Part shown: positions 1-63,622 of the stretch, piece after piece
Layout of the letters: every line of letters starts with the position of its first letter
Numbering within the stretch: the first letter of the stretch is position 1
Assembly (NCBI RefSeq): GCF_000422285.1
Contig: NZ_AULM01000014.1
Location: 1-64,000, forward strand
DNA length: 64,000 bases
DNA from: Desulfatiglans anilini DSM 4660
GTDB taxonomy: Bacteria; Desulfobacterota; DSM-4660; Desulfatiglandales; Desulfatiglandaceae
Reading direction: 5' to 3'
Translations under genes and position numbers: made by a program
Notes under the pieces: generated by a model
Database searches by the model: none
What the model saw: only the letters and a program-made list of their open reading frames with translations
Told to the model about the DNA's origin: nothing

Positions 1-70
1 CTCCCCGATCGAAAATGGTTTAGCAAAAGGCCCTCTTTTATGCTAGACACATAGTCATTTCCATCCGCGA

Positions 71-230
71 ATGGACTTTCCGGCCGATCCCGGCTTCAAT
101 CTTTTCATCCCCTTGTGCTGCACCTGGGCGGCGTCTCCGCGCAAACGCCCGGTTTCATCGACGCGGCGAAAACCGGGACCAGCCGTGAAGGGGGCGAAGA
201 AACCGGGAATCGCCGCAAACCTTACCTGGT
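71..230. repeat. Degenerate copy of the intergenic palindromic repeat
   Basis: This spacer resembles the repeat family described at 8028-8167 (for example a CGGCCGATCCCGGCTTCAATC-like start and TCCGCGCAAACG further on), but many bases differ and the central palindrome is gone. It lies directly next to the better copy at 231-417. I see no convincing gene in 1-455. The alignment was done by eye, so the boundaries are approximate. Confidence 0.35.
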
Positions 231-417
231 TTCCATCCGGAAACGAGGATTTTTCTTCACACCCTTCGGGTGCTCAGTCCCACCGCTTCGCGGCGGGTCC
301 CGGTTTGGCCAATATCAAGGAAATCAAGCGTTTGCGCGGATGCGACCTGCAGGTCGCCCCACAAGCAAACGTGCAGATTGACGCCGAGATTGGCCAAAAA
401 GACCCTTTCCGGATTGC
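231..417 (-). repeat. Palindromic intergenic repeat, long form (copy A)
   Basis: A long-form member in reverse orientation. It runs from TTTCCATCCGGAAA at the left through a hairpin block (CACCGCTTCGCGGCGGG), TTGGCCAATATC, the core GCGACCTGCAGGTCGC and TTGGCCAAAAAGACC to TTTCCGGATTG at the right. It ends about 40 bp before the ATG at 456, so it makes up most of that gene's upstream region and may be in its mRNA leader. Confidence 0.75.
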
Positions 418-455
418 AACTACCTATTGCAGGGGCAGAGCTCAGGAGAAAAACA

Positions 456-4648: not shown

Positions 4649-4668
4649 AGCCTCTCCCTCCTCATAAG

Positions 4669-4859
4669 TTTCCGTCCGGAAATGGTCTTTTCGGCCAATT
4701 TCGGCGTCAATCTGCACGTTTGCTTGTGCGGCGACCTGCAGGTCGCCTCCGCACAAACCCTTGCTTTTCTTATTACTGGCCAAACCGGGACCCGCTTCGA
4801 AGCGGTGGGATTGAGCATCCGAAGGGTGTGAGGAAAAATCCTCATTTCCGGCCTGGGAA
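4669..4859 (+). repeat. Palindromic intergenic repeat, long form (copy B)
   Basis: A complete long-form member. It has a left terminus around TCCGGAAATGG, then TTTTCGGCCAAT, the 18-bp perfect palindrome GGCGACCTGCAGGTCGCC near the left third, and a hairpin block containing the 14-bp palindrome CCGCTTCGAAGCGG. A second small stem (CATCC-GAA-GGGTG) follows, ending in ATCCTCATTTCCGG. It begins about 20 bp upstream of the start of the cytidylate-kinase-like gene and occupies that gene's promoter side. Confidence 0.8.
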
Positions 4860-4879
4860 CTGTTTCGTTTTCAACGCGT

Positions 4880-4937
4880 AATTTCCGGATTGGAAACCCG
4901 GTTGTACCCAGGAAATCATTTCCGGATTGAAACCATC
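4880..4937 (+). repeat. Short satellite module of the repeat family
   Basis: A roughly 45-58 bp unit that accompanies the large palindrome, here with TTGGAAACCCGGTTGTACCC and GGAAATCATTTCC. The second part is a small perfect stem (GGAAAT-C-ATTTCC). Matching units follow the large repeat at 8161-8203 and 12353-12400, and one stands alone at 44011-44055. From here to 5129 nothing else is recognisable. Confidence 0.6.
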
Positions 4938-7898: not shown

Positions 7899-8027
7899 CC
7901 GCCTGGTCAGACGGCTGCGCCGCAGCCGCTCCAAGCGTTTCGTCTCGCCGTATTTTCCGAAGCGTCCCCTGCGACTCACCGCCCGCAACGCCCCTTCACC
8001 GCCCCCCGGTATCCTTCAGGCGGTCCG

Positions 8028-8167
8028 TTTCCAATCCGGAAATGGTCCTTTTGGCCAATCTCGGCGTCAATCTGCACGTTTGCTTGTGCGGCGACCTGCA
8101 GGTCGCCTCCGCGCAAACGCTTGATCTCCTTGATATTGGCCAAAAATCCTCATTTCCGGATTGGAAA
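8028..8167. repeat. Palindromic intergenic repeat, best short-form copy (copy C)
   Basis: A 140-bp imperfect palindrome centred at 8098/8099. The ends TTTCCAATCCGGAAATG (8028-8044) and CATTTCCGGATTGGAAA (8151-8167) are perfect 17-bp inverted repeats. Inside, TTTTGGCCAAT pairs with ATTGGCCAAAA, and GTTTGC plus the 18-bp perfect palindrome GGCGACCTGCAGGTCGCC plus GCAAAC form the centre. A satellite module follows at 8161-8203. The element has no room for a gene. MITE-like or REP-like status is inferred; no transposase lies nearby. Confidence 0.85.
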
Positions 8168-8310
8168 CCGGTTCTACCGGGAAATCATTTCCGGATGGGA
8201 ACCAGCTCGATTTTCTGAATCTTTCACGAATCCGCTTTCATCCGGCGAAGGTCTTTCGCCGGCCGGCTGCGCCGCTCAGCCCCCTTCATGGCGGATCCGC
8301 CGCCCGGTCC

Positions 8311-8418
8311 CGACGTCAATCTGCACGTTTGCTTGTGCGGCGACCTGCAGGTCGCCACGGCGCGAGGGTGCCATTCCCCTGAAATCAGCAAAAAAATCAT
8401 CCTGTCCGGATTGGAAAC
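8311..8418 (+). repeat. Partial palindromic repeat (copy D)
   Basis: This copy keeps CGTCAATCTGCACGTTTGC, the perfect core GGCGACCTGCAGGTCGCC and a right terminus TCCGGATTGGAAAC, but the right inner arm is replaced by unrelated sequence and the left end is missing. It ends about 10 bp before the earliest rnc start. Between copies C and D lies a separate short stem, CCGGCGAA/TTCGCCGG, near 8240-8262. Confidence 0.6.
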
Positions 8419-8427
8419 TTGCGCGCC

Positions 8428-11744: not shown

Positions 11745-12273
11745 GCTTTTTGCAAACCTCCACGAATCAAAATCGGAACGGCCTATTGATAAATGAATTC
11801 CCCTTTTCCAGCAAGGTGAAAAAGGGGCGGACCGGGTCTGATCCCGTCCTCGGATCGTTTTTTATCTTGACACCCAACCCATACATCCCGCATACTTTCA
11901 CTAAAAAGTTCCCTTTATCAATGGTTTAAGTCAACATTTCTTTCGACTTCCTGAAATGCCCCCCGTATCCCGGCCCGCAGGGTGCGGCATCCGCTGGATC
12001 CCGGGCGGCTTCACCGATACCCGCCCTTTTTGCCAAGGGCTTTCCAAAGTCGCTGAGACCATCCGCCCCGGAAAGCCGCCGGGCCTATTTCGCAAGTTTT
12101 TGCAATCGAAGCAATCCATTCGGAACCACCATCCCGGTTGAAGGATGTTTTAGTCGCTGGTGTAAAAGGCCTTTCGATCAACCCCAACCGTTCTTGTTTT
12201 TTGTTTTCTTTTTTATTCTCTGGTGCAAAAGGCCGCGGGCCCCCATGAATCATTGCAGAGGCAGGTTCGTGTC
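11745..12273. other. Gene-less spacer upstream of cysC
   Basis: I see no convincing gene here. It holds an 8-bp stem CCCCTTTT/AAAAGGGG (11800-11827) without a T-tract, a possible promoter at 11867-11896, and two short similar strings of the form GGTGYAAAAGGCC near 12157 and 12221. The small open frames in it lack ribosome sites and family features. Confidence 0.5.
11867..11896 (+). promoter_or_regulatory. Possible sigma-70 promoter
   Basis: TTGACA at 11867-11872 is a perfect -35 box. It is followed after 18 bp by CATACT (11891-11896), a 4/6 match to the -10 box. The nearest downstream gene starts at 12581, so either the leader is very long or the transcript is non-coding. The call rests on sequence match only. 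Confidence 0.25.
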
Positions 12274-12500
12274 CCATCCGGAAAGGGGCCTTTTGGCCAA
12301 TCTCGGCGTCAATCTGCACGTTTGCTTGATATTGGCCAAAAATCCTCATTTCCGGTTGGCAAACCGGGTTCTACCGGGAAATCATTTCGTGATGTAAACT
12401 ACTTGATTTCCTTGATATTGGCCAAACCGGGACCCGCCGCGAAGCGGTGGGACTGAGCACTTGAAGGGTGTGAAGAAAAATCCTCATTTCCGGATGGAAG
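12274..12500 (+). repeat. Composite, rearranged palindromic repeat (copy E)
   Basis: Three pieces lie in series. First is an 84-bp derivative (12275-12359) whose whole central palindrome is missing: it goes from CACGTTTGCTTG straight to ATATTGGCC, as if deleted between two CTTG strings. Next is the satellite module (12353-12400). Last is the right half of a long form (about 12403-12495) with CCGCCGCGAAGCGG and CATTTCCGGATGG. It ends about 85 bp before the next start codon. Confidence 0.7.
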
Positions 12501-12580
12501 CGAAATCTTTTTCAGGCCGCAGATCCGTGCGGAGACATGCCGGCAAAACCCTTGCCCGATCGAAAGGAGACAGGATTCTT

Positions 12581-13361: not shown

Positions 13362-15317
13362 ATGAAGGATACCCAATCCGCCGGAATGATCTATGATTTT
13401 CTGAAAACCGTTCCACCGTTCCATCTCCTGCCCGACGCGGAGATTCGGGACCTCTCGCGCACCTTAACCCTGGAGCACTTTCATCCTGATCAAGTGATCC
13501 TCAGCCCCGGCTCCCCCCCGAACCAATTCCTGTACCTGATCCGCTCCGGCGAGGTCCGGCTCATCCCTTTCGGGGGTCGGAAGGAAAGCGCCGGGCCTGT
13601 GGTCGACATGCGCGGAGAAGGGGAGTTTTTCGGCTTTTTCAGCCTCCTCGGCAACCGGCCGAGTCCTTTCACCATCGTCGCCGAACGGGACACCATTTGC
13701 TTTCTCCTCGGCAAGGCCAGCTTCCTCCGGCTCCTCGACACCTATCCCGATGTCCTCCTGTACTTCACCATGGGCCCCAGCAAGGGCTTCAAGGCCCCCG
13801 TCCCGGGAAGGCCGGCGGAAGGGAGTGCCGCAGCGCCTTCCGGGCCGGAGCCGGACATCCTCTTTTTTTCCGCCCGCGTGCGGGACATCATGCATCCCCA
13901 CGTGGCGGTCTGCCCGGACAACGAATCCGTCGTGGCGGCCGCCCGCCTCATGACCACGCGCGGGGTCGGGTCCCTGGTCGTCGTCGACCCGGCGCAGAAG
14001 CCCATCGGGATCCTGACGGACGGGGACCTCCGACGCAAGGTGATCGCCTCGGGGGAGCTGAAGGATGTCCCCGTCAAAGGGGTCATGAGCCATCCCCTCT
14101 CGGCGGTGCCGCCCGACGCCTTTCTCTTCGATGCCATCCTCCTCATGATCCGCAAACGCATCAAGTACCTGCCCGTCCTCCAGGGACAGGACCTGGCGGG
14201 AATCCTCTCCGAGCGGGACCTCATGATCTCGCAGGGCAACAACCCCGTCGCGATCATCCGCCGCATCCAGCAGGCGCCGGACCTCGAGGAGCTCGTTCTC
14301 ATCCGCAAGGAAATCACCCACACCCTGAAGGTGATGCTCGAGCGCGGCGGGCAGGCGCGGGAGATCTGCCAGCTCATCACCCAACTGAACGACCACCTCA
14401 CGGTCCGGATCATCGAACTGGCCGCGGGGGACCTCGACCGGGAGGGTCGGAAGGCCCCCCCGCTGCCTTTCGTCTGGGTGTCCCTCGGAAGCGAAGGGCG
14501 CCAGGAGCAGACCCTCTCGACCGACCAGGACAACGCCCTGATCTTCGGCGATTCCGACCCCGGCTCGGAGGCGGACGCAAAGGCCTATTTTCTGGTCCTG
14601 GCCGAGCGGGTGGTCTCCGGCCTCGAACGCTGCGGCTTCCCGCGCTGCAACGGAGACATGATGGCCTCGAACCCGCAGTGGTGCCAGCCGCTCAGGGTCT
14701 GGAAGGACTATTACCAGAAGTGGATCTTTCAGCGGGACCTCTCGGCCCAGGACATCCTGATCTCGTCCATCTTTTTCGATTTCCGGGCCATCTACGGACC
14801 GGAGAGCCTTCTGAACGATCTGATCGCCTCCATCAAGGCAGCCATCCCCGAGAGCAAGGTCTTCCTGCCTCACATGGCCCTGCGCTCCCTGGAGCTGCGG
14901 ACGCCGTTGAGCTTCTTCAACCGGCTCGTGGTGGAACGGTCCGGACAGTACAAGAACCGCCTCAACATCAAACGCCACGGCCTGATGCCGCTGATCGACG
15001 CCGTCCGCATCCTGTCCCTCGAACAGGGGATCTTCCGGACCAACACGCTCGACCGCATTGCGGCCCTGATGGAAAGGGACATCTTCGCCCCGGGGGATGG
15101 GAACAACCTGCGGGAGGCCTTCAACCTCATGATGCTCCTGCGGCTGCAGCACAACCTCGAACAACTGAACCAGGGCGAGCAGCTCGACAACTACATCGAA
15201 CCTTCGGAACTGAGCACAATCCAGCGGTCCAATCTGAAAATGGCCTTCAAGGCCATCGACCGCCTGCAGAGCCAGATCGAGATCCGCTACGGCCTGACGA
15301 CCCTCAGGAAACGGTGA
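13362..15317 (+). CDS. cNMP-binding/CBS/nucleotidyltransferase signalling protein, paralog 1
   Basis: A 651-aa cytoplasmic signalling protein. It has a cNMP-binding-like beta-roll (about residues 15-135), two CBS domains (about 170-295, starting VRDIMHPHVAVCPDNESV), a DUF294 nucleotidyltransferase-like domain with GSEGRQEQTLSTDQDNALIF (about 376-395), and a helical DUF294 C-terminal domain. The GS and DQD residues of the transferase site are intact. The CBS pair is expected to bind adenine nucleotides or similar ligands; no target is known from sequence. The ribosome site GGGGGAGAG precedes the ATG. It heads a same-strand run to 24833 and has paralogs at 21592 and 25626. The 230-bp spacer before it shows nothing I recognise. 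Confidence 0.85.
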   Translation: MKDTQSAGMIYDFLKTVPPFHLLPDAEIRDLSRTLTLEHFHPDQVILSPGSPPNQFLYLIRSGEVRLIPFGGRKESAGPVVDMRGEGEFFGFFSLLGNRPSPFTIVAERDTICFLLGKASFLRLLDTYPDVLLYFTMGPSKGFKAPVPGRPAEGSAAAPSGPEPDILFFSARVRDIMHPHVAVCPDNESVVAAARLMTTRGVGSLVVVDPAQKPIGILTDGDLRRKVIASGELKDVPVKGVMSHPLSAVPPDAFLFDAILLMIRKRIKYLPVLQGQDLAGILSERDLMISQGNNPVAIIRRIQQAPDLEELVLIRKEITHTLKVMLERGGQAREICQLITQLNDHLTVRIIELAAGDLDREGRKAPPLPFVWVSLGSEGRQEQTLSTDQDNALIFGDSDPGSEADAKAYFLVLAERVVSGLERCGFPRCNGDMMASNPQWCQPLRVWKDYYQKWIFQRDLSAQDILISSIFFDFRAIYGPESLLNDLIASIKAAIPESKVFLPHMALRSLELRTPLSFFNRLVVERSGQYKNRLNIKRHGLMPLIDAVRILSLEQGIFRTNTLDRIAALMERDIFAPGDGNNLREAFNLMMLLRLQHNLEQLNQGEQLDNYIEPSELSTIQRSNLKMAFKAIDRLQSQIEIRYGLTTLRKR

Positions 15318-21591: not shown

Positions 21592-23490
21592 ATGCTGACA
21601 GAAGACGTTATCCGGTTTCTCTCGGGGGTTCCCCCTTTCCAGTTCCTGGACAGAGGGGAGATGGAGCGGGTGGCCAGGGATGCCTCTCTGGAATTCTATC
21701 CCGTCAACACACTGATTCTCAAACAGAACGGGCCCCCCAGCGACGCCCTGAGGGTTATCAAGAAGGGGGCGGTCAAGGTCGTCATCGAGGGGGATGAAGG
21801 GGAGGAAATCGTCACGGAGTACAAGGGCGAAGGGGACAATTTCGGGTTCCTGTCCATGATCGGAAAGGACCGCCAGCGCACCACGGTCAAGGCCATCGAA
21901 GACACCCTCTGCTACATCCTGAGCAGGGAGCGGGTCCAGCGGCTCCTCGAGTCCAGCCCGGCCTTCGCCGAGTATTTCCTGTCGTACCTGTCCCGTTACG
22001 TCGATCGGACCTCTCAGGAGATGCGACGGCGAAGCCAGCTCCAGAGCGCACACGACCGGCTCCTCTTCACCACGCCGGTGGGGAACATCGCCATGGACCT
22101 GATCACGGTGCCCGGGTCCATCTCCATCCAGGAAGCCGCCAGAACCATGGTCAGACACCGGATCAGCTCGCTCGTCATCCTGAACGAGCACAACCTGCCC
22201 ACGGGCATCGTAACCGACCGCGATCTGCGCGAGAAGGTCGTGGCGACGGGGCGAAGCGTCTCGGAGCCGGTCCGGAACATCAGCCACCTCGCCCTGATCC
22301 GGGCCGACGGAAAGGGATCCTGCTTCGAGGCCCTCATGAAAATGATCCAGTACAACATCCACCATCTCCTCGTGGTGGAGGAAGGCGAAATCAAAGGGAT
22401 CATCACCAACCATGACCTCATGCTGCTCCAGGGGACCTCCCCTGTCTCCTTCGCGAAGGACATCCTCCTCCAGGACAGCCTGGAGGGGCTGATCCCCCTG
22501 ATGTCGAAGGTCTTCAACGTCATCGGGCTGCTGCTCAAGGAAGGCAGCCACTACGCCCAACTCGCGGGCATCATCTCCGAGATCTACGACCGGCTCATCC
22601 GAAGGGTCCTCGAGCTGACCGAAAAGGAGATGGGGCCGCCGCCGCTGCCCTATTGCTGGGTGGCCCTCGGAAGCGAAGGGCGCCGGGAACAGATCTTCAA
22701 GACGGACCAGGACAATGCCCTCATCTACTCCGACCCGGCCACCCCCGGCGAGGAGATCGACGCAGCGGGCTATTTCTCCGTCTTCAGCAACCGGGTCAAA
22801 GAGAACCTCGGCTCCCTCGGGATTCCGGCCTGCCCCCAGGGACTCATGGCGGCCAACCCCCGCTGGTGCCAGCCGATCCGGACCTGGAAGGCGGTCTTCA
22901 CCCAATGGATTGCGGAGCCTTCCGAGGGGGACTTGGCGAATGCGCTCAATTTTTTCGACGCCCGGCCGCTTTTCGGCAAGTCCATGCTGTTTCAGGGGAT
23001 CCGAAGCCACATCACGCCCTGGATCGTGGAGGAAGGCGGCGCGTTTCTGAGTGCGCTTGGGCGGCTGGCCGTCAGGACCCCTCCCCCGGCCGGCTTCGTC
23101 GGCAATGCGATCTTCGAAAAAAACGGAGAACAGAGGACGGAGATCGATCTGAAGCGGCGCGGAATCCTCCCGATCGTCGACCTCGTCCGGCTGTTCGCGC
23201 TCTCGATCGGTCTTCCGGAAACCGCCACCCTCGGAAGGATCAAGGCCCTGCGCATCAAGGACCCGGCTTTTGCACCGATGGAACGGGAGCTGCTTCACAC
23301 CTTCGAGTACCTGATGCTGACCCTCACCCATCACCAGTATGAACAGATCCGGTTGGGGCTCGCCCCGGACTCCTTGCTGCAGCCCGCGGACATGAGCAGC
23401 CTCGAGAAGAAGACCTTGCGGGAGGCCTTCCGTCTGATCGAGTCCCTGCAGCAACTCGCGCGGGAGCGTTTCGATCCGGGGACGGCCTGA
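21592..23490 (+). CDS. cNMP-binding/CBS/nucleotidyltransferase signalling protein, paralog 2
   Basis: A 632-aa paralog of the protein at 13362, with the same order: cNMP-like beta-roll (about 10-130), CBS pair (about 165-285, including TGIVTDRDLREKVV), DUF294 nucleotidyltransferase-like domain with GSEGRREQIFKTDQDNALIY (about 360-379), and a helical C-terminal domain. The active-site DQD is present. The start follows the previous stop by two bases without a strong ribosome site, so translation is probably coupled. Its stop overlaps the start of the next regulator (TGATG). Sitting between two response regulators, it may modulate the same pathway. Confidence 0.85.
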   Translation: MLTEDVIRFLSGVPPFQFLDRGEMERVARDASLEFYPVNTLILKQNGPPSDALRVIKKGAVKVVIEGDEGEEIVTEYKGEGDNFGFLSMIGKDRQRTTVKAIEDTLCYILSRERVQRLLESSPAFAEYFLSYLSRYVDRTSQEMRRRSQLQSAHDRLLFTTPVGNIAMDLITVPGSISIQEAARTMVRHRISSLVILNEHNLPTGIVTDRDLREKVVATGRSVSEPVRNISHLALIRADGKGSCFEALMKMIQYNIHHLLVVEEGEIKGIITNHDLMLLQGTSPVSFAKDILLQDSLEGLIPLMSKVFNVIGLLLKEGSHYAQLAGIISEIYDRLIRRVLELTEKEMGPPPLPYCWVALGSEGRREQIFKTDQDNALIYSDPATPGEEIDAAGYFSVFSNRVKENLGSLGIPACPQGLMAANPRWCQPIRTWKAVFTQWIAEPSEGDLANALNFFDARPLFGKSMLFQGIRSHITPWIVEEGGAFLSALGRLAVRTPPPAGFVGNAIFEKNGEQRTEIDLKRRGILPIVDLVRLFALSIGLPETATLGRIKALRIKDPAFAPMERELLHTFEYLMLTLTHHQYEQIRLGLAPDSLLQPADMSSLEKKTLREAFRLIESLQQLARERFDPGTA

Positions 23491-25625: not shown

Positions 25626-27530
25626 ATGGACCGGGAAAACATCATCCGTTTTTTGACACGCTCACCGCTCTTTCAGGATCTGGAGCCCGGGGTCCTGCAG
25701 GATCTGGCCGACCGCCTGGAGGTGGAAACCCACCGCGGGGGCAGCGTCATCCATGAACCTGCCGGGCCGCCCGTCGACCGCCTCCGGATCATCAAAGAAG
25801 GGGCGGTCAAGATCACGCTCCCTTTCGGCCGCAACGACGACGCCCTGATCGACTACCGGGGCACCGGTGAGATCCTCGGCTTTCTCTCCCTGCTGACCGG
25901 CGGACGGCCCCGCGGAGAGGCCGTCACCCTTGAAGACACGACCTTTTTCGTGCTCGATCGGGCGACCACCCTGAATCTTCTCAAGAGCCAGCCGGCCTTC
26001 GCCCAGCAGTTCTTCTCGGATTTCTACAACCGTTATGTCCACAAACCCCACCGGGAGATCGGGAAGAAGAAACTCCTCTACGGGGGAGGCGAAAGGCTCC
26101 TTTTCACGACGCCGGTCGGAGAACTGGTCAAACGCGACCTGGTCACCGCCTCCGAGGAAATCTCCATCCGCGAGGCCGCCGAGATCATGATGGCCCGCCG
26201 GATCGGCTCCCTCGTCCTTTTGAACGCGCTCGGTCTGCCGGCGGGGATCGTCACCAACAAAGACTTCCGGGACCGCGTGGTCTCCCGGAACCGGGATGTA
26301 TCCCAACCCGCCCGGCGCATCCAGAGCGTCTCCCTGGTCAAGGCCGAGGCGGCCGAACACTGCATCGAGGCCCTCTTCAAGATGCTGCACTACAACATCC
26401 GCCACCTCCTGGTGGTCGAGGGCGGCCGGCTCAAAGGCATCGTGACCGCCCAGGACCTCCTGCGGCTTCAGGGGACATCGCCGATCGCCATCGTGCAGGA
26501 ACTCGAAAGCCAGCCTTCCATCGACGGCCTGGTGGACCCCGCCGCAAGGATCCAGTCCATGGTCGGCGCCTTCCTCCAGGAGGGGGTCAAGACCAATCAC
26601 ATCCTCAGGATCCTGAACGAGGTGTACGACCGGCTGATCCGGCAGGTGGTGAGCCTGGAGGAACGCCGGCTGGGACGCGCCCCTCTGCCCTATTGCTTCC
26701 TGTCCTTCGGCTGCGCAGGCCGTAAGGAGCAGATCTTTATGCTCCCCCAGCGCAATGCCCTCCTCTTCGCAGACCCTCCCTCCCCGGAGACCGCGGAGCC
26801 CGCGGCCCGCTATTTCGGCGAGCTTTCGGACGCCATTGTACGCGCCCTGGAACGGCTGGGCTTCCCCGCCGGGGGGGGCGGCGCATCCGGCCATGAGGCC
26901 TGCCCCTTCCATTCTTCCACCGCCTGGAAAAACCGCTTTTTCGAATGGATCAAGCGGGCGGACCGCGGATCCATCGAGGCATCCCTGCCGGTCCTCGACT
27001 TCCGCGCGCGCTTCGGCGACGAAACCCTGGCCGAAGACCTGAGAAGCGCGGTTTTCGACCGCATCGCCCGACACGGCGTCTTTCTGAACGTCATGGGCCT
27101 CACGATCGTCAAGACCTCCCCTCCCGTCAGCGCCTTCAAGCGGTTCATTCTCGAAAAGGAAGGCGAACACAAGGGATGTTTCGATTTGAAGCAGAAGGGG
27201 TTGAAACCGCTCGTCGACATGGTCCGCCTGTACGCCCTGGAGGAGGGGATCCGGGAGACCTCGACCTGCGAAAGGCTCGGCGCCCTCAGGGAGCGCTCTC
27301 AGCACCTGCGGCCGCACTGCCAGGAACTGGAGTATGCCTTCGAGATCATGAGCGGCCTCTGGCTTCGGACCCAGCACGAACAATATTCTGCGGGCGCGGG
27401 CACGGCGTCCTCCTTTCTCGATCCGGACCGTCTCAACCGGCTCGAGAAGCAGGCCCTGCGCGCCATCTTCACCTTCATCGCCAAACTCCAGTTTCTCGTC
27501 CAGGAAAGGCACGAACCGATAAAGATCTGA
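25626..27530 (+). CDS. cNMP-binding/CBS/DUF294 protein, paralog 3, with lost transferase residues
   Basis: A 634-aa third paralog with beta-roll, CBS pair (AGIVTNKDFRDRVV, LVVEGGRLKGIVTAQDLL), DUF294 domain and helical C-terminus. The transferase motif is degraded: where paralogs 1 and 2 read GSEGR...TDQDNAL, this one reads GCAGRKEQIFMLPQRNALLF (about 360), losing the serine and both acidic residues of DQD. It is probably a catalytically dead sensor or regulatory subunit. ATG 25626 aligns with the other paralogs; the TTG 81 bp upstream is less likely. The gene is followed after 19 bp by the exonuclease gene. Confidence 0.83.
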   Translation: MDRENIIRFLTRSPLFQDLEPGVLQDLADRLEVETHRGGSVIHEPAGPPVDRLRIIKEGAVKITLPFGRNDDALIDYRGTGEILGFLSLLTGGRPRGEAVTLEDTTFFVLDRATTLNLLKSQPAFAQQFFSDFYNRYVHKPHREIGKKKLLYGGGERLLFTTPVGELVKRDLVTASEEISIREAAEIMMARRIGSLVLLNALGLPAGIVTNKDFRDRVVSRNRDVSQPARRIQSVSLVKAEAAEHCIEALFKMLHYNIRHLLVVEGGRLKGIVTAQDLLRLQGTSPIAIVQELESQPSIDGLVDPAARIQSMVGAFLQEGVKTNHILRILNEVYDRLIRQVVSLEERRLGRAPLPYCFLSFGCAGRKEQIFMLPQRNALLFADPPSPETAEPAARYFGELSDAIVRALERLGFPAGGGGASGHEACPFHSSTAWKNRFFEWIKRADRGSIEASLPVLDFRARFGDETLAEDLRSAVFDRIARHGVFLNVMGLTIVKTSPPVSAFKRFILEKEGEHKGCFDLKQKGLKPLVDMVRLYALEEGIRETSTCERLGALRERSQHLRPHCQELEYAFEIMSGLWLRTQHEQYSAGAGTASSFLDPDRLNRLEKQALRAIFTFIAKLQFLVQERHEPIKI

Positions 27531-30538: not shown

Positions 30539-30545
30539 GTTTGAG

Positions 30546-30684
30546 TTTCCGGCCGGAAATGGTCTTTTCACCCGATCTCGGCGTCAATCTGCACATTCGC
30601 TTGTGCGGCGGCCTTGAAGGTCGCCTCCGCGCGAACGCTCGATTTCCTTGATCTCGGCTGAAAATCGTCATTTCCGGCTCGAAA
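30546..30684. repeat. Diverged but still palindromic repeat (copy F)
   Basis: This copy has the same outline as 8028-8167 but many changed bases. The ends are GTTTCCGGCCGGAAATG and CATTTCCGGCTCGAAAAC. The centre is GGCGGCCTTGAAGGTCGCC, which still pairs end to end (one G-T). In the arms TTTTCA faces TGAAAA where other copies have TTTTGG/CCAAAA, and TTCGC faces GCGAA where others have TTTGC/GCAAA. These are compensatory changes. It fills the gap between the symporter gene and the acs promoter side. Confidence 0.75.
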
Positions 30685-30844
30685 ACTCCCTCGGGATATC
30701 AACCTTTGTTGTCCGTAAACTCAGGCGCGAATGCTCCCTCGAGCGGAGGGCTTCGAGGCGGCCTCACCGCTCGCAGGCAAGATCATTGCATGTGCCTCAT
30801 CAAAAGAACATCCGGGCGCAGACCCAAGGCTCGATCGAACCTTT

Positions 30845-33792: not shown

Positions 33793-33846
33793 GCCGGACC
33801 GGGACCCGCCCCGAAGGAACGGCGCTGAGCCGTTGAAGGACAGAAA
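33793..33846 (+). repeat. Fragment of the palindromic repeat (hairpin block)
   Basis: ACCGGGACCCGCCCCGAAGG followed by CTGAGCCGTTGAAGGACAG matches the hairpin block of the long-form repeat (ACCGGGACCCGCCGCGAAGC...CTGAGCACTTGAAGGGTG) at about three quarters of positions. The rest of the element is absent. Confidence 0.45.
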
Positions 33847-43851: not shown

Positions 43852-44010
43852 CTTTTATGATCCTCTCGTCTTCGCTGGAAGGCCCCTCCGGTCTTCTTCG
43901 AGACCGGCACGGGCCACGATGATGCCCTATCCTGCCCGGTGCCGCACCACGCAGGGGGCTCCCCGCCCTCGAGGCCGGCGGTGAAGCCTTTCACCGGGAT
44001 TCCAATTCAA

Positions 44011-44055
44011 TCCCATCCGGAAATGATTTCCCGGCAAAACCCGGTTTCCAATCCA
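44011..44055 (-). repeat. Satellite repeat module in the gltB leader
   Basis: Reverse-oriented copy of the short module at 8161-8203: CCCATCCGGAAATGATTTCC then CCGG and AAACCCGGTTTCCAATCC. It lies between the sigma-54 promoter and the gltB start, so it should be transcribed in the gltB leader. Confidence 0.65.
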
Positions 44056-52002: not shown

Positions 52003-52024
52003 CGCATTTCCGGATTGGAAACCG
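52003..52024. repeat. Terminal fragment of the palindromic repeat
   Basis: CATTTCCGGATTGGAAACC matches the terminal inverted repeat of 8028-8167 exactly (17 bp), standing alone near the upstream end of the HAD gene. Confidence 0.5.
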
Positions 52025-60718: not shown

Positions 60719-60842
60719 CAGGCTGTTGAAAAACGCCCGTCCGCTGCGTTGCGCTCATCCCACATCACTGCGGCGCACAGATATGTGCAGCCATTCCAAG
60801 GAATTTCGCAAACCCTGCATCCGGCCCCTTTTCAACAGCCTG
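60719..60842. repeat. 124-bp element with 14-bp terminal inverted repeats
   Basis: CAGGCTGTTGAAAA (60719-60732) and TTTTCAACAGCCTG (60829-60842) are perfect inverted repeats 96 bp apart. The interior has no gene. This family differs from the main palindromic repeat. It sits between the DUF2889 gene and the RdgC-like genes and could act as a transcription barrier. Confidence 0.7.
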
Positions 60843-61788: not shown

Positions 61789-61850
61789 AATAAGGAAATC
61801 AAGCGCCCACGCTGAGGCGACTTGCAGGCCGCCTCATGCGCGAAGGGGCG
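61789..61850 (-). repeat. Degenerate half of the palindromic repeat
   Basis: AAGGAAATCAAGCG is shared with copy A. The core is GGCGACTTGCAGGCCGCC with two changes from consensus, but its flanks TGAGGC/GCCTCA extend the stem. The termini are missing. An in-frame ATG of the MATE gene at 61836 lies inside this fragment and is unlikely to be the real start. Confidence 0.5.
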
Positions 61851-61952
61851 GATCGAGGCCGGAAGCGGTCGAAAACACCCTTTTCGGAGAGAGGCCGGGT
61901 CATCGCCGTCCGCCGCACCGTGGCCCAAAAAATCATCAGAGGTCCCCGCAGC

Positions 61953-63584
61953 GTGAATGTTTCCTGTTCCAGATGGTCGGAGCCCGGAGGATACCGAGAG
62001 GTCCTCAAGATCGCGATCCCTCTGATCCTGAGTACGGGTGCCTGGTCGATCCAGCACTTCGTGGACCGGATGTTTCTGTCCTGGTATTCCCCCGAGGCCA
62101 TCGCAGCCGCCATGCCGGCCGGCATGCTCAATTTCACCCTCATGAGCATCTTCATCGGCACGGTGAGCTATGTGAGCACATTCGTCGCGCAATATCACGG
62201 CGCGGGGCGGCACCGGGAGATAGGGCCGGTCCTCTGGCAGGGGATGTATGTCTCCATGTTCGGCGGGCTTTGCATGCTCTGCCTGATCCCCCTCGCCGGG
62301 CCCATCTTCGCCTTTGTAGGGCACGATGCGCCCGTGCAGAAAAATGAGGTCGATTACTTCGTCATCCTCTCCATCGGAGGGTTCCCGGCGATTGCGACCC
62401 ATGCGCTCTCCGGTTTTTTTTCCGGGGTTGCGCGTCCCTGGCCGATCATGTGGGTGACCATGGCCTCGACGGCCCTGAACCTGATTCTGGACTATCTCTT
62501 CATCTTCGGCAGGGCCGGCCTGCCCGAAATGGGGATGCGCGGCGCGGCACTGGCCACGGTCCTCGCCGCCGTGTTCTCCCTGGTCGTCATGCTCCTGCTG
62601 GCCTGGCGCACCGCGAACGACACCCGCTACCATACCCTGAAGGGCTGGCGGCCCGATGCGGCGCTGATGCGGCGGCTGCTGCGATTCGGCTTTCCTTCCG
62701 GGATGCAGTTCTTCCTGGACATGAGCGGCTTCACCGGTTTCATCCTCCTCGTGGGAAGGCTCGGCACCCTGCCGCTGGCCGCCACCAACATCGCCTTCAA
62801 CATCAACACAATTGCCTTCATGCCTATGATCGGCTGCGGGATCACGGTATCCGTCCTGGTCGGGCAGCACCTCGGCAGGAACGCCCCTGAGCTGGCCGAA
62901 AAGGCGACCTGGTCGGCGTTCCACATCACCTTCGCCTACATGGCCTCGATAGCGCTCGCCTATGTCCTGATCCCGGAGGTCTTCGTCTCCCCTTTCGCAC
63001 CGGCGGACAACCCGCAGGCCTTCGAAGCCATTTTTCACCTGGCCGTGATCCTCCTTCGCTTCGTCGCCCTCTACTCCATCTTCGACACGCTCAGCATCGT
63101 CTTCGCCTCCGCCGTCAAGGGGGCGGGCGACACGCGCTTCGTCATGCTGATCATCGCCGCCTTCTCGGGTCTCATTCTGCTCGGGCCCGCATACGTGATG
63201 ATCGTCGTCCTGGGGTGGGGCATCATGGCGGCCTGGATCCTGGCCACGCTTTACGTGACCTCGCTTGGCATCGTCTTCCTCCTGCGGTTCCTGCAGGGCA
63301 AATGGAAGGCGATGCGGGTCATCGAACCGGACAAGATCTGGGGCGCCCCCGAAATACCCCCCGTTCGGGAGCAATCGTCCACCCCGCAAAGGCTCCCGAT
63401 ACCAAAACCAGGTTTCCGGCCGGGGAGGCAGCCTGTCCCCATCCTGCAACAGGGAGCTGTCCAGGATGCCTGCCGCTTCGATCAGTCAAGCCCCGCCACC
63501 GACCCGGGCGGACTCGGCACTCCAGGAGTGGAACCAGGCGCGGGATCGTGCAGCAACCGGTTGGACGATCACAACCCCCCGTAG
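61953..63584 (+). CDS. MATE-family efflux transporter
   Basis: About 543 aa with 12 hydrophobic helices. MATE features: ILSTGAWSIQHFVDRMFLSW, GAALATVLAAVFSLVVML, and SAVKGAGDTRFVMLIIAAF. It should export drugs or metabolites against sodium or protons. GTG 61953 is chosen with AGAGG upstream; an ATG at 61836 falls in a repeat. The last 65 residues (after KIWGAPEIPP) are proline-rich and unlike the family, so the C-terminus may be a drifted tail. The substrate is unknown. Confidence 0.85.
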   Translation: MNVSCSRWSEPGGYREVLKIAIPLILSTGAWSIQHFVDRMFLSWYSPEAIAAAMPAGMLNFTLMSIFIGTVSYVSTFVAQYHGAGRHREIGPVLWQGMYVSMFGGLCMLCLIPLAGPIFAFVGHDAPVQKNEVDYFVILSIGGFPAIATHALSGFFSGVARPWPIMWVTMASTALNLILDYLFIFGRAGLPEMGMRGAALATVLAAVFSLVVMLLLAWRTANDTRYHTLKGWRPDAALMRRLLRFGFPSGMQFFLDMSGFTGFILLVGRLGTLPLAATNIAFNINTIAFMPMIGCGITVSVLVGQHLGRNAPELAEKATWSAFHITFAYMASIALAYVLIPEVFVSPFAPADNPQAFEAIFHLAVILLRFVALYSIFDTLSIVFASAVKGAGDTRFVMLIIAAFSGLILLGPAYVMIVVLGWGIMAAWILATLYVTSLGIVFLLRFLQGKWKAMRVIEPDKIWGAPEIPPVREQSSTPQRLPIPKPGFRPGRQPVPILQQGAVQDACRFDQSSPATDPGGLGTPGVEPGAGSCSNRLDDHNPP

Positions 63585-63622
63585 CGGCGGGACTGAGCAC
63601 ACGCAGTGTGCAAGGAGATTGG
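63579..63622 (+). repeat. Fragment of the palindromic repeat (hairpin block)
   Basis: CCCGTAGCGGCGGGACTGAG followed by CACACGCAGTGTGC matches the hairpin block of the long form. The small stem here is GCACAC-GCA-GTGTGC, perfectly paired although copy A has GCACCC/GGGTGT. It overlaps the MATE stop codon. Confidence 0.5.

Follow-up and report, generated by a model that had tools for sequence, protein, structure and literature searches.

Intergenic palindromes of Desulfatiglans anilini as a non-autonomous transposon, most likely moved by an ISNCY-type insertion sequence

The palindrome family in the window

The stretch of DNA analysed here (the window) comprises 64,000 nucleotides from the draft genome of Desulfatiglans anilini DSM 4660 (4.67 Mb, 107 contigs; designated G000). 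The best protein matches bearing an organism name were 66-68% identical and came from Desulfatiglandales/Deltaproteobacteria, among them strain NaphS2. A preliminary description had recognized a family of intergenic palindromes, and had regarded the copy studied here as a 140-bp palindrome with perfect terminal inverted repeats of 17 bp. We found that positions 8027-8168 form a 142-nt near-palindrome whose perfect inverted termini, GTTTCCAATCCGGAAATG / CATTTCCGGATTGGAAAC, are 18 bp in length and whose centre is GGCGACCTGCAGGTCGCC. The perfect termini and the centre were thus confirmed, but the palindrome is not the whole unit; a 36-bp tail with a third end motif follows, and the complete element is ~176 bp (Table 1). 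RNA folding, which had been proposed as a check, indicated a very stable structure for positions 8020-8175 (-76 kcal/mol, z = -9.4), with none of 200 shuffles equally good. The DNA fold of positions 8027-8203 gave a z of -8.5 against shuffled sequence. An Rfam scan of the window gave no matches above the gathering score. A target duplication is no longer visible at the focal copy, and at the corresponding site in a complete genome of the same genus (G001) most of the element is gone by a 111-bp deletion.

Table 1. Members and remnants of the palindrome family in the window.
Feature	Positions	Strand	Remarks
Degenerate copy	51-161	+	~60-70% identity to others
192-bp copy with one 52-bp module, without tail	229-420	-	Flanking 5-bp repeat TACCT
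266-bp copy with one module and two tail repeats	4668-4933	+	Orthologous copy present in G001
Main hairpin of focal copy	8027-8168	+	Left end GTTTCCAATCCGGAAATG at 8027-8044; asymmetric stem; central palindrome ~8090-8107; bulged inner end CATTTCCGGATTGGAAAC at 8151-8168
Tail of focal copy	8169-8203	+	Outer right end CATTTCCGGATGGGAAC at ~8186-8203; completes 177-bp element
Left-truncated copy	8284-8421	+	Shortly downstream of focal copy
Composite or rearranged copy	12269-12501	+	Holds one module
Diverged main hairpin	30545-30688	+	Orthologous copy present in G001
Degenerate 52-bp module alone	33798-33840	+	No palindrome
Tail remnant	44010-44054	-	Complete element kept at orthologous G001 site; most of it lost in window
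End-motif fragment	52005-52022	+	
Degenerate main-hairpin copy	61789-61890	-	
Degenerate 52-bp module alone	63575-63617	+	No palindrome

Among the family members listed previously, those at ~229, 4668, 8308, 12269 and 30545 proved to be full or near-full, and those at 61789, 44010 and 52005 a degenerate copy, a tail remnant and an end-motif fragment, respectively. The entries at 33793 and 63579 do not stand as palindromes; both are pieces of the 52-bp module described below. The degenerate copy at 51-161 is an addition to the list.

Two other repeats were noticed in the window. Positions 60719-60842 contain a 32-bp inverted repeat (CAGGCTGTTGAAAAACGCC..) with a 60-bp loop, unrelated to the palindrome family. 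A 95-bp block with 65-80% identity is common to three ORFs (14457-14551, 22639-22733 and 26679-26773), which lie within 12 kb and look like paralogous genes.

Structure, copy number and insertion sites of the unit

The boundaries of the unit were determined from the flanks of 50 copies together with the spacing of the end motifs. The element consists of the left end GTTTCCATCCGGAAATG, the hairpin, a bulged inner repeat of the end (CATTTCCGGATTGGAAAC), a spacer of ~18 nt and the outer right end CATTTCCGGATGGANAC, 176 bp in total. Exactly this length was found in 43 elements, with the terminal inverted repeats GTTTCCATCCGGAAATG ... CATTTCCGGATGGANAC at both outer ends. Some copies harbour a 52-bp module (ACCGGGACCCGCCGCGAAGCGGTGGGACTGAGCACCCGAAGGGTGTGAAGA plus one base) that forms two small hairpins, the inner pairs of which swap G-C for C-G between copies. 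Elements with no, one or two modules are 176, 228 and 281 bp, and the size range of 140-190 bp given in the preliminary description is explained by these insertable modules. No size class contains a transposase gene, in agreement with the lack of coding capacity noted before.

Repetition was also seen at the level of the parts. The 36-bp tail repeat occurs in tandem, and in G001 whole elements do so as well; 3-4 elements, complete or almost so, stand head to tail at a spacing of ~142-182 bp on C1 at 803136-803530, 2312543-2313025 and 3015795-3016247. The 52-bp module forms short tandem arrays at two loci (L150 and L168), at L150 outside any complete palindrome, and the module may be an independent repeat. 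At the third-last base on the tail side of the 176-bp element (column 174), A, T, C and G are used almost equally in G000 and G001 (16/10/8/9), whereas the equivalent position at the opposite end is almost always T. We considered this variation as a signature of individual insertions, but part of it follows the tail subfamilies, and we claim no mechanism.

The family is abundant. The core motif gave 136 matches in G000 and 237 in G001, with none for a reversed control pattern, and the end motif (two mismatches or fewer) gave 209 matches in G000 against 0 for its reversed pattern. An absence of further copies in the genome, which would have spoken against the family, was not observed. Among the scored candidates of G000, at least 41 were near-complete copies with 91-100% identity. 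Outside the window, G000 was read in the stretches surrounding matches. Several G000 contigs start at element copies. At 136-237 core copies per genome, the element shapes the spacers of its hosts and may break short-read assemblies. Single end motifs lacking a partner, which might have marked the borders of a larger element, turned out on inspection to be decayed copies. Placement was examined for 126 copies with a simple hexamer-based gene caller, whose calls are rough: 6 lay inside a called ORF, 51 in divergent, 47 in co-directional and 12 in convergent spacers, and 10 were too close to the locus edge. Within co-directional spacers, the orientation matched that of the genes for 25 copies and opposed it for 22, revealing no bias. 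This pattern fits insertion that is tolerated in spacers, and lends no support to a strand-specific RNA role.

We searched for traces of transposition in the flanking sequences. Direct repeats of 6 bp or more flanked 15 of 71 non-redundant elements (~1% in shuffled pairings), and repeats of 7 bp or more flanked 13 (0.1% in shuffled pairings). The joined flanks of 15 copies of the palindromic element and one insertion sequence (IS) copy described below were then compared with both sister genomes, G000 and G001. As a result, a continuous match representing an unoccupied site was obtained for six, the sixth being less clean. The duplicated bases were present singly in the empty sites (TATTCTA, AACCTAG, AAGAGG, TGGTTA, which reads TGGCTA when filled, and GAATT). 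The focal site and those at 229 and 12269 were ruled out as clean empty sites, as G001 displays deletions or rearrangements there. In other genera, element copies of 175-177 bp were found with target-site duplications (TSDs) of 6-7 bp. In the flanks at three loci (L004, L191 and L208), another dispersed repeat (..TTTGACAAGAGCCCGTTTCATAACA..) recurs beside independent insertions of the element or the IS, which suggests a shared target sequence.

A candidate transposase with matching ends

NF033593 (NCBIfam) was chosen as the query for a partner transposase, as one ISNCY group has duplications of 6-7 bp. The search identified three IS copies in G001 and a single one in G016, a member of another genus. 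The G001 copies are 1,693-1,698 bp, bounded by GTTTCCATCCGGAAA, with the ends GTTTCCATCCGGAAAACG and, at the partner end, GTTTC(C/T)ATCCGGAAATAGGGTTTTT. One is flanked on both sides by TAAATA; the other two are without a clean duplication, and one copy has a stop codon in its ORF. The protein scored 444.6 bits against NF033593 (cutoff 325), placing it in the ISNCY family, and contains DDE_Tnp_1 and DUF772 domains. The G016 copy (1,698 bp, TSD TAATTA, 67% protein identity) has the ends GTGTCCATCCAGAAATG / GTGTGCATCCATGAAGG (GTGTCCATCCA..). The palindromic element of G016 starts with GTTTCCATCCATAAATGG, and both it and the G016 IS read ATCCA in place of the ATCCG of the first genus. The ends of the IS therefore depart from those in G001 in the same direction as the ends of the palindromic element. 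Strong identity between IS and palindromic element is confined to ~15 bp at the ends plus a T-rich stretch.

With a transposase above the family cutoff, a length of 1.69 kb, ends of ~15 bp and a 6-bp duplication, the partner IS resembles the ISNCY family. The palindromic element lacks a transposase, and has only the ends in common with such an IS. Within ISNCY, the IS possibly belongs to the ISDol1 group of ISfinder, a group with 6-7-bp duplications. The IS1202 group does not fit, because its duplications are 3-5, 16-28 or 0 bp (PMC10132070). No transposase match was found in the draft assembly of G000, and many relatives bearing the element also have no matching transposase. The enzyme in G000 and in these relatives has thus been lost, is unassembled or is a different one. 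At one locus of a further genome (L236, G007), several GTGTCCATCCGGAAAT-type ends are clustered near a 26-aa transposase end, possibly debris of an IS.

Taking these results together, we propose that the palindromes are a non-autonomous transposon, that is, a MITE, most probably mobilized by the transposase of an ISNCY-type IS with the same ends (probability roughly 0.88). Its identity as a MITE we regard as close to certain; short length without a transposase gene, TSDs and an autonomous element with the same ends in G001 and G016 were all found. The ISNCY-type IS is the likely partner, mobilization in trans being suggested by the shared ends and duplications. In the proposed mechanism, the DDE transposase would bind the two outer ends, GTTTCCATCC on the left and GGATGGANAC on the right, and excise or copy the MITE, which would be inserted with a 6-7-bp duplication, mainly between genes. 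The hairpin interior might be kept since folded RNA or single-stranded DNA helps persistence or limits damage to the host. The MITE-like spread envisaged in the preliminary description is strongly supported by the 6-7-bp duplications, the empty sites and the transposase with matching ends in G001 and G016.

Conservation of the folded interior and other explanations

We examined how widely the element is distributed. By blast, it was present in 16 of 41 relatives. Within the order, the core pattern was found in 26 of 85 genomes (20 of 47 genera). Of 395 genomes sampled from the phylum, 23 contained it, and single genomes of other families had as many as 23 matches. Copies from other families share the left end and the interior; several have a complete tail and a duplication, and others are truncated. 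Examples are L267 (176 bp, TAAATA), L273 (TACCTA) and L282 (TCGCTA). Among 21 sequences of the order, two-sided changes occurred in 19 of 44 pairs (45 cells; shuffles gave 11.0±3.4 and slid partners 1-6). In 33 sequences across families, 118 two-sided cells were counted against 32.0±4.8, a number reached in 0 of 500 shuffles; slid controls gave 8-41. These counts are inflated by kinship among the sequences, and the structure was derived from the same sequences.

These changes make selection on the folded interior plausible, and part of the same signal could be produced by templated repair of palindromes. A tentative proposal, to which we give somewhat less than even odds, is a MITE lineage in which the folded interior is selected throughout the phylum as a functional nucleic acid, either RNA or a single-stranded DNA hairpin. 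The structured RNA or DNA role suggested in the preliminary description thus retains a place, with an interior hairpin that covaries across many families. If the proposal is correct, the fold would be, for example, a binding structure for the transposase or a host factor, or an insulator making insertions tolerable, and the element would be a non-coding mobile element with a structure of its own, as opposed to an IS that had passively lost its interior by deletion. Alternatively, the compensatory changes in the MITE could derive from template-switch correction of quasi-palindromes, not from selection on structure. Correction of this kind renders palindromes more perfect and changes both sides in one event. 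However, the asymmetric loops and bulges (TTGTGCGG vs CCTCCGC; GGCGTC vs TTTCCTTG), which correction should erase, hold some of the most conserved positions, and we consider this origin possible but rather unlikely.

Explanations without a MITE are much less probable. The stable fold and the strong covariation across families would also be expected of a structured RNA, terminator or cis-regulatory element encoded by the host, conserved but not mobile. The precise insertions with TSDs and empty sites, polymorphic between sister species, are at odds with this, as are the even orientation towards co-directional genes (25 same, 22 opposite) and the absence of an Rfam match in the window, and we judge it very improbable, although a MITE could act as RNA after insertion. 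The least probable is a REP/BIME-like palindrome spread by RAYT, a Y1 tyrosine transposase that moves short palindromes without target duplications. The family is indeed palindromic, intergenic and present in many copies, and both G000 and G001 contain Y1_Tnp genes. On the other hand, the clear 6-7-bp TSDs and empty sites contradict this mode of movement, the canonical 17-bp end motif was found at none of the six Y1 loci examined, and, as had been remarked, the unit is too long for classic REP units (176 bp, not 20-40 bp).

MITEs of bacteria are commonly regarded as lineage-specific remnants under little internal constraint. The breadth of interior conservation in the present MITE, together with its module architecture, is unusual. 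An interior and fold kept across families with two-sided changes, a candidate transposase, empty sites in sister species and natural variants in module number make it a concrete system to test selection on the fold of a non-coding mobile element, and the purpose of that fold. The copies did not correspond to parts of known mobile elements, which would have spoken against a new family: there was no match in Rfam or in the plasmid collection (blastn), nor when named genomes and viral contigs were scanned with exact patterns, and no earlier description of the element or its end sequence was found in the searchable literature, an incomplete body outside which most subscription literature lies.

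Known prokaryotic MITEs such as Chunjie (Geobacter), QMITE (Coxiella) and MITEAba12 (reviewed in PMC10969869) are, like the present element, short and intergenic, with no ORF, terminal inverted repeats, target duplications, a strong fold and probable movement by an IS with matching ends. In contrast to these three, the present element has an interior and fold common to many families of the phylum, and modular size classes. BOX elements of pneumococcus (PMC3049150) are also intergenic composite repeats with a variable count of a self-folding internal module, and give stem-loop RNA if transcribed. The likeness lies in architecture, with no sequence relation seen, and the present element has in addition ends, duplications and a candidate transposase. 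The BrickBuilt MITE of Porphyromonas gingivalis (PMC4596501), which is always intergenic, similarly combines an internal tandem repeat with leader and tail units. Its repeat is a 23-bp minisatellite found in one species, whereas the module described here is a 52-bp unit of two hairpins in a widely spread element.
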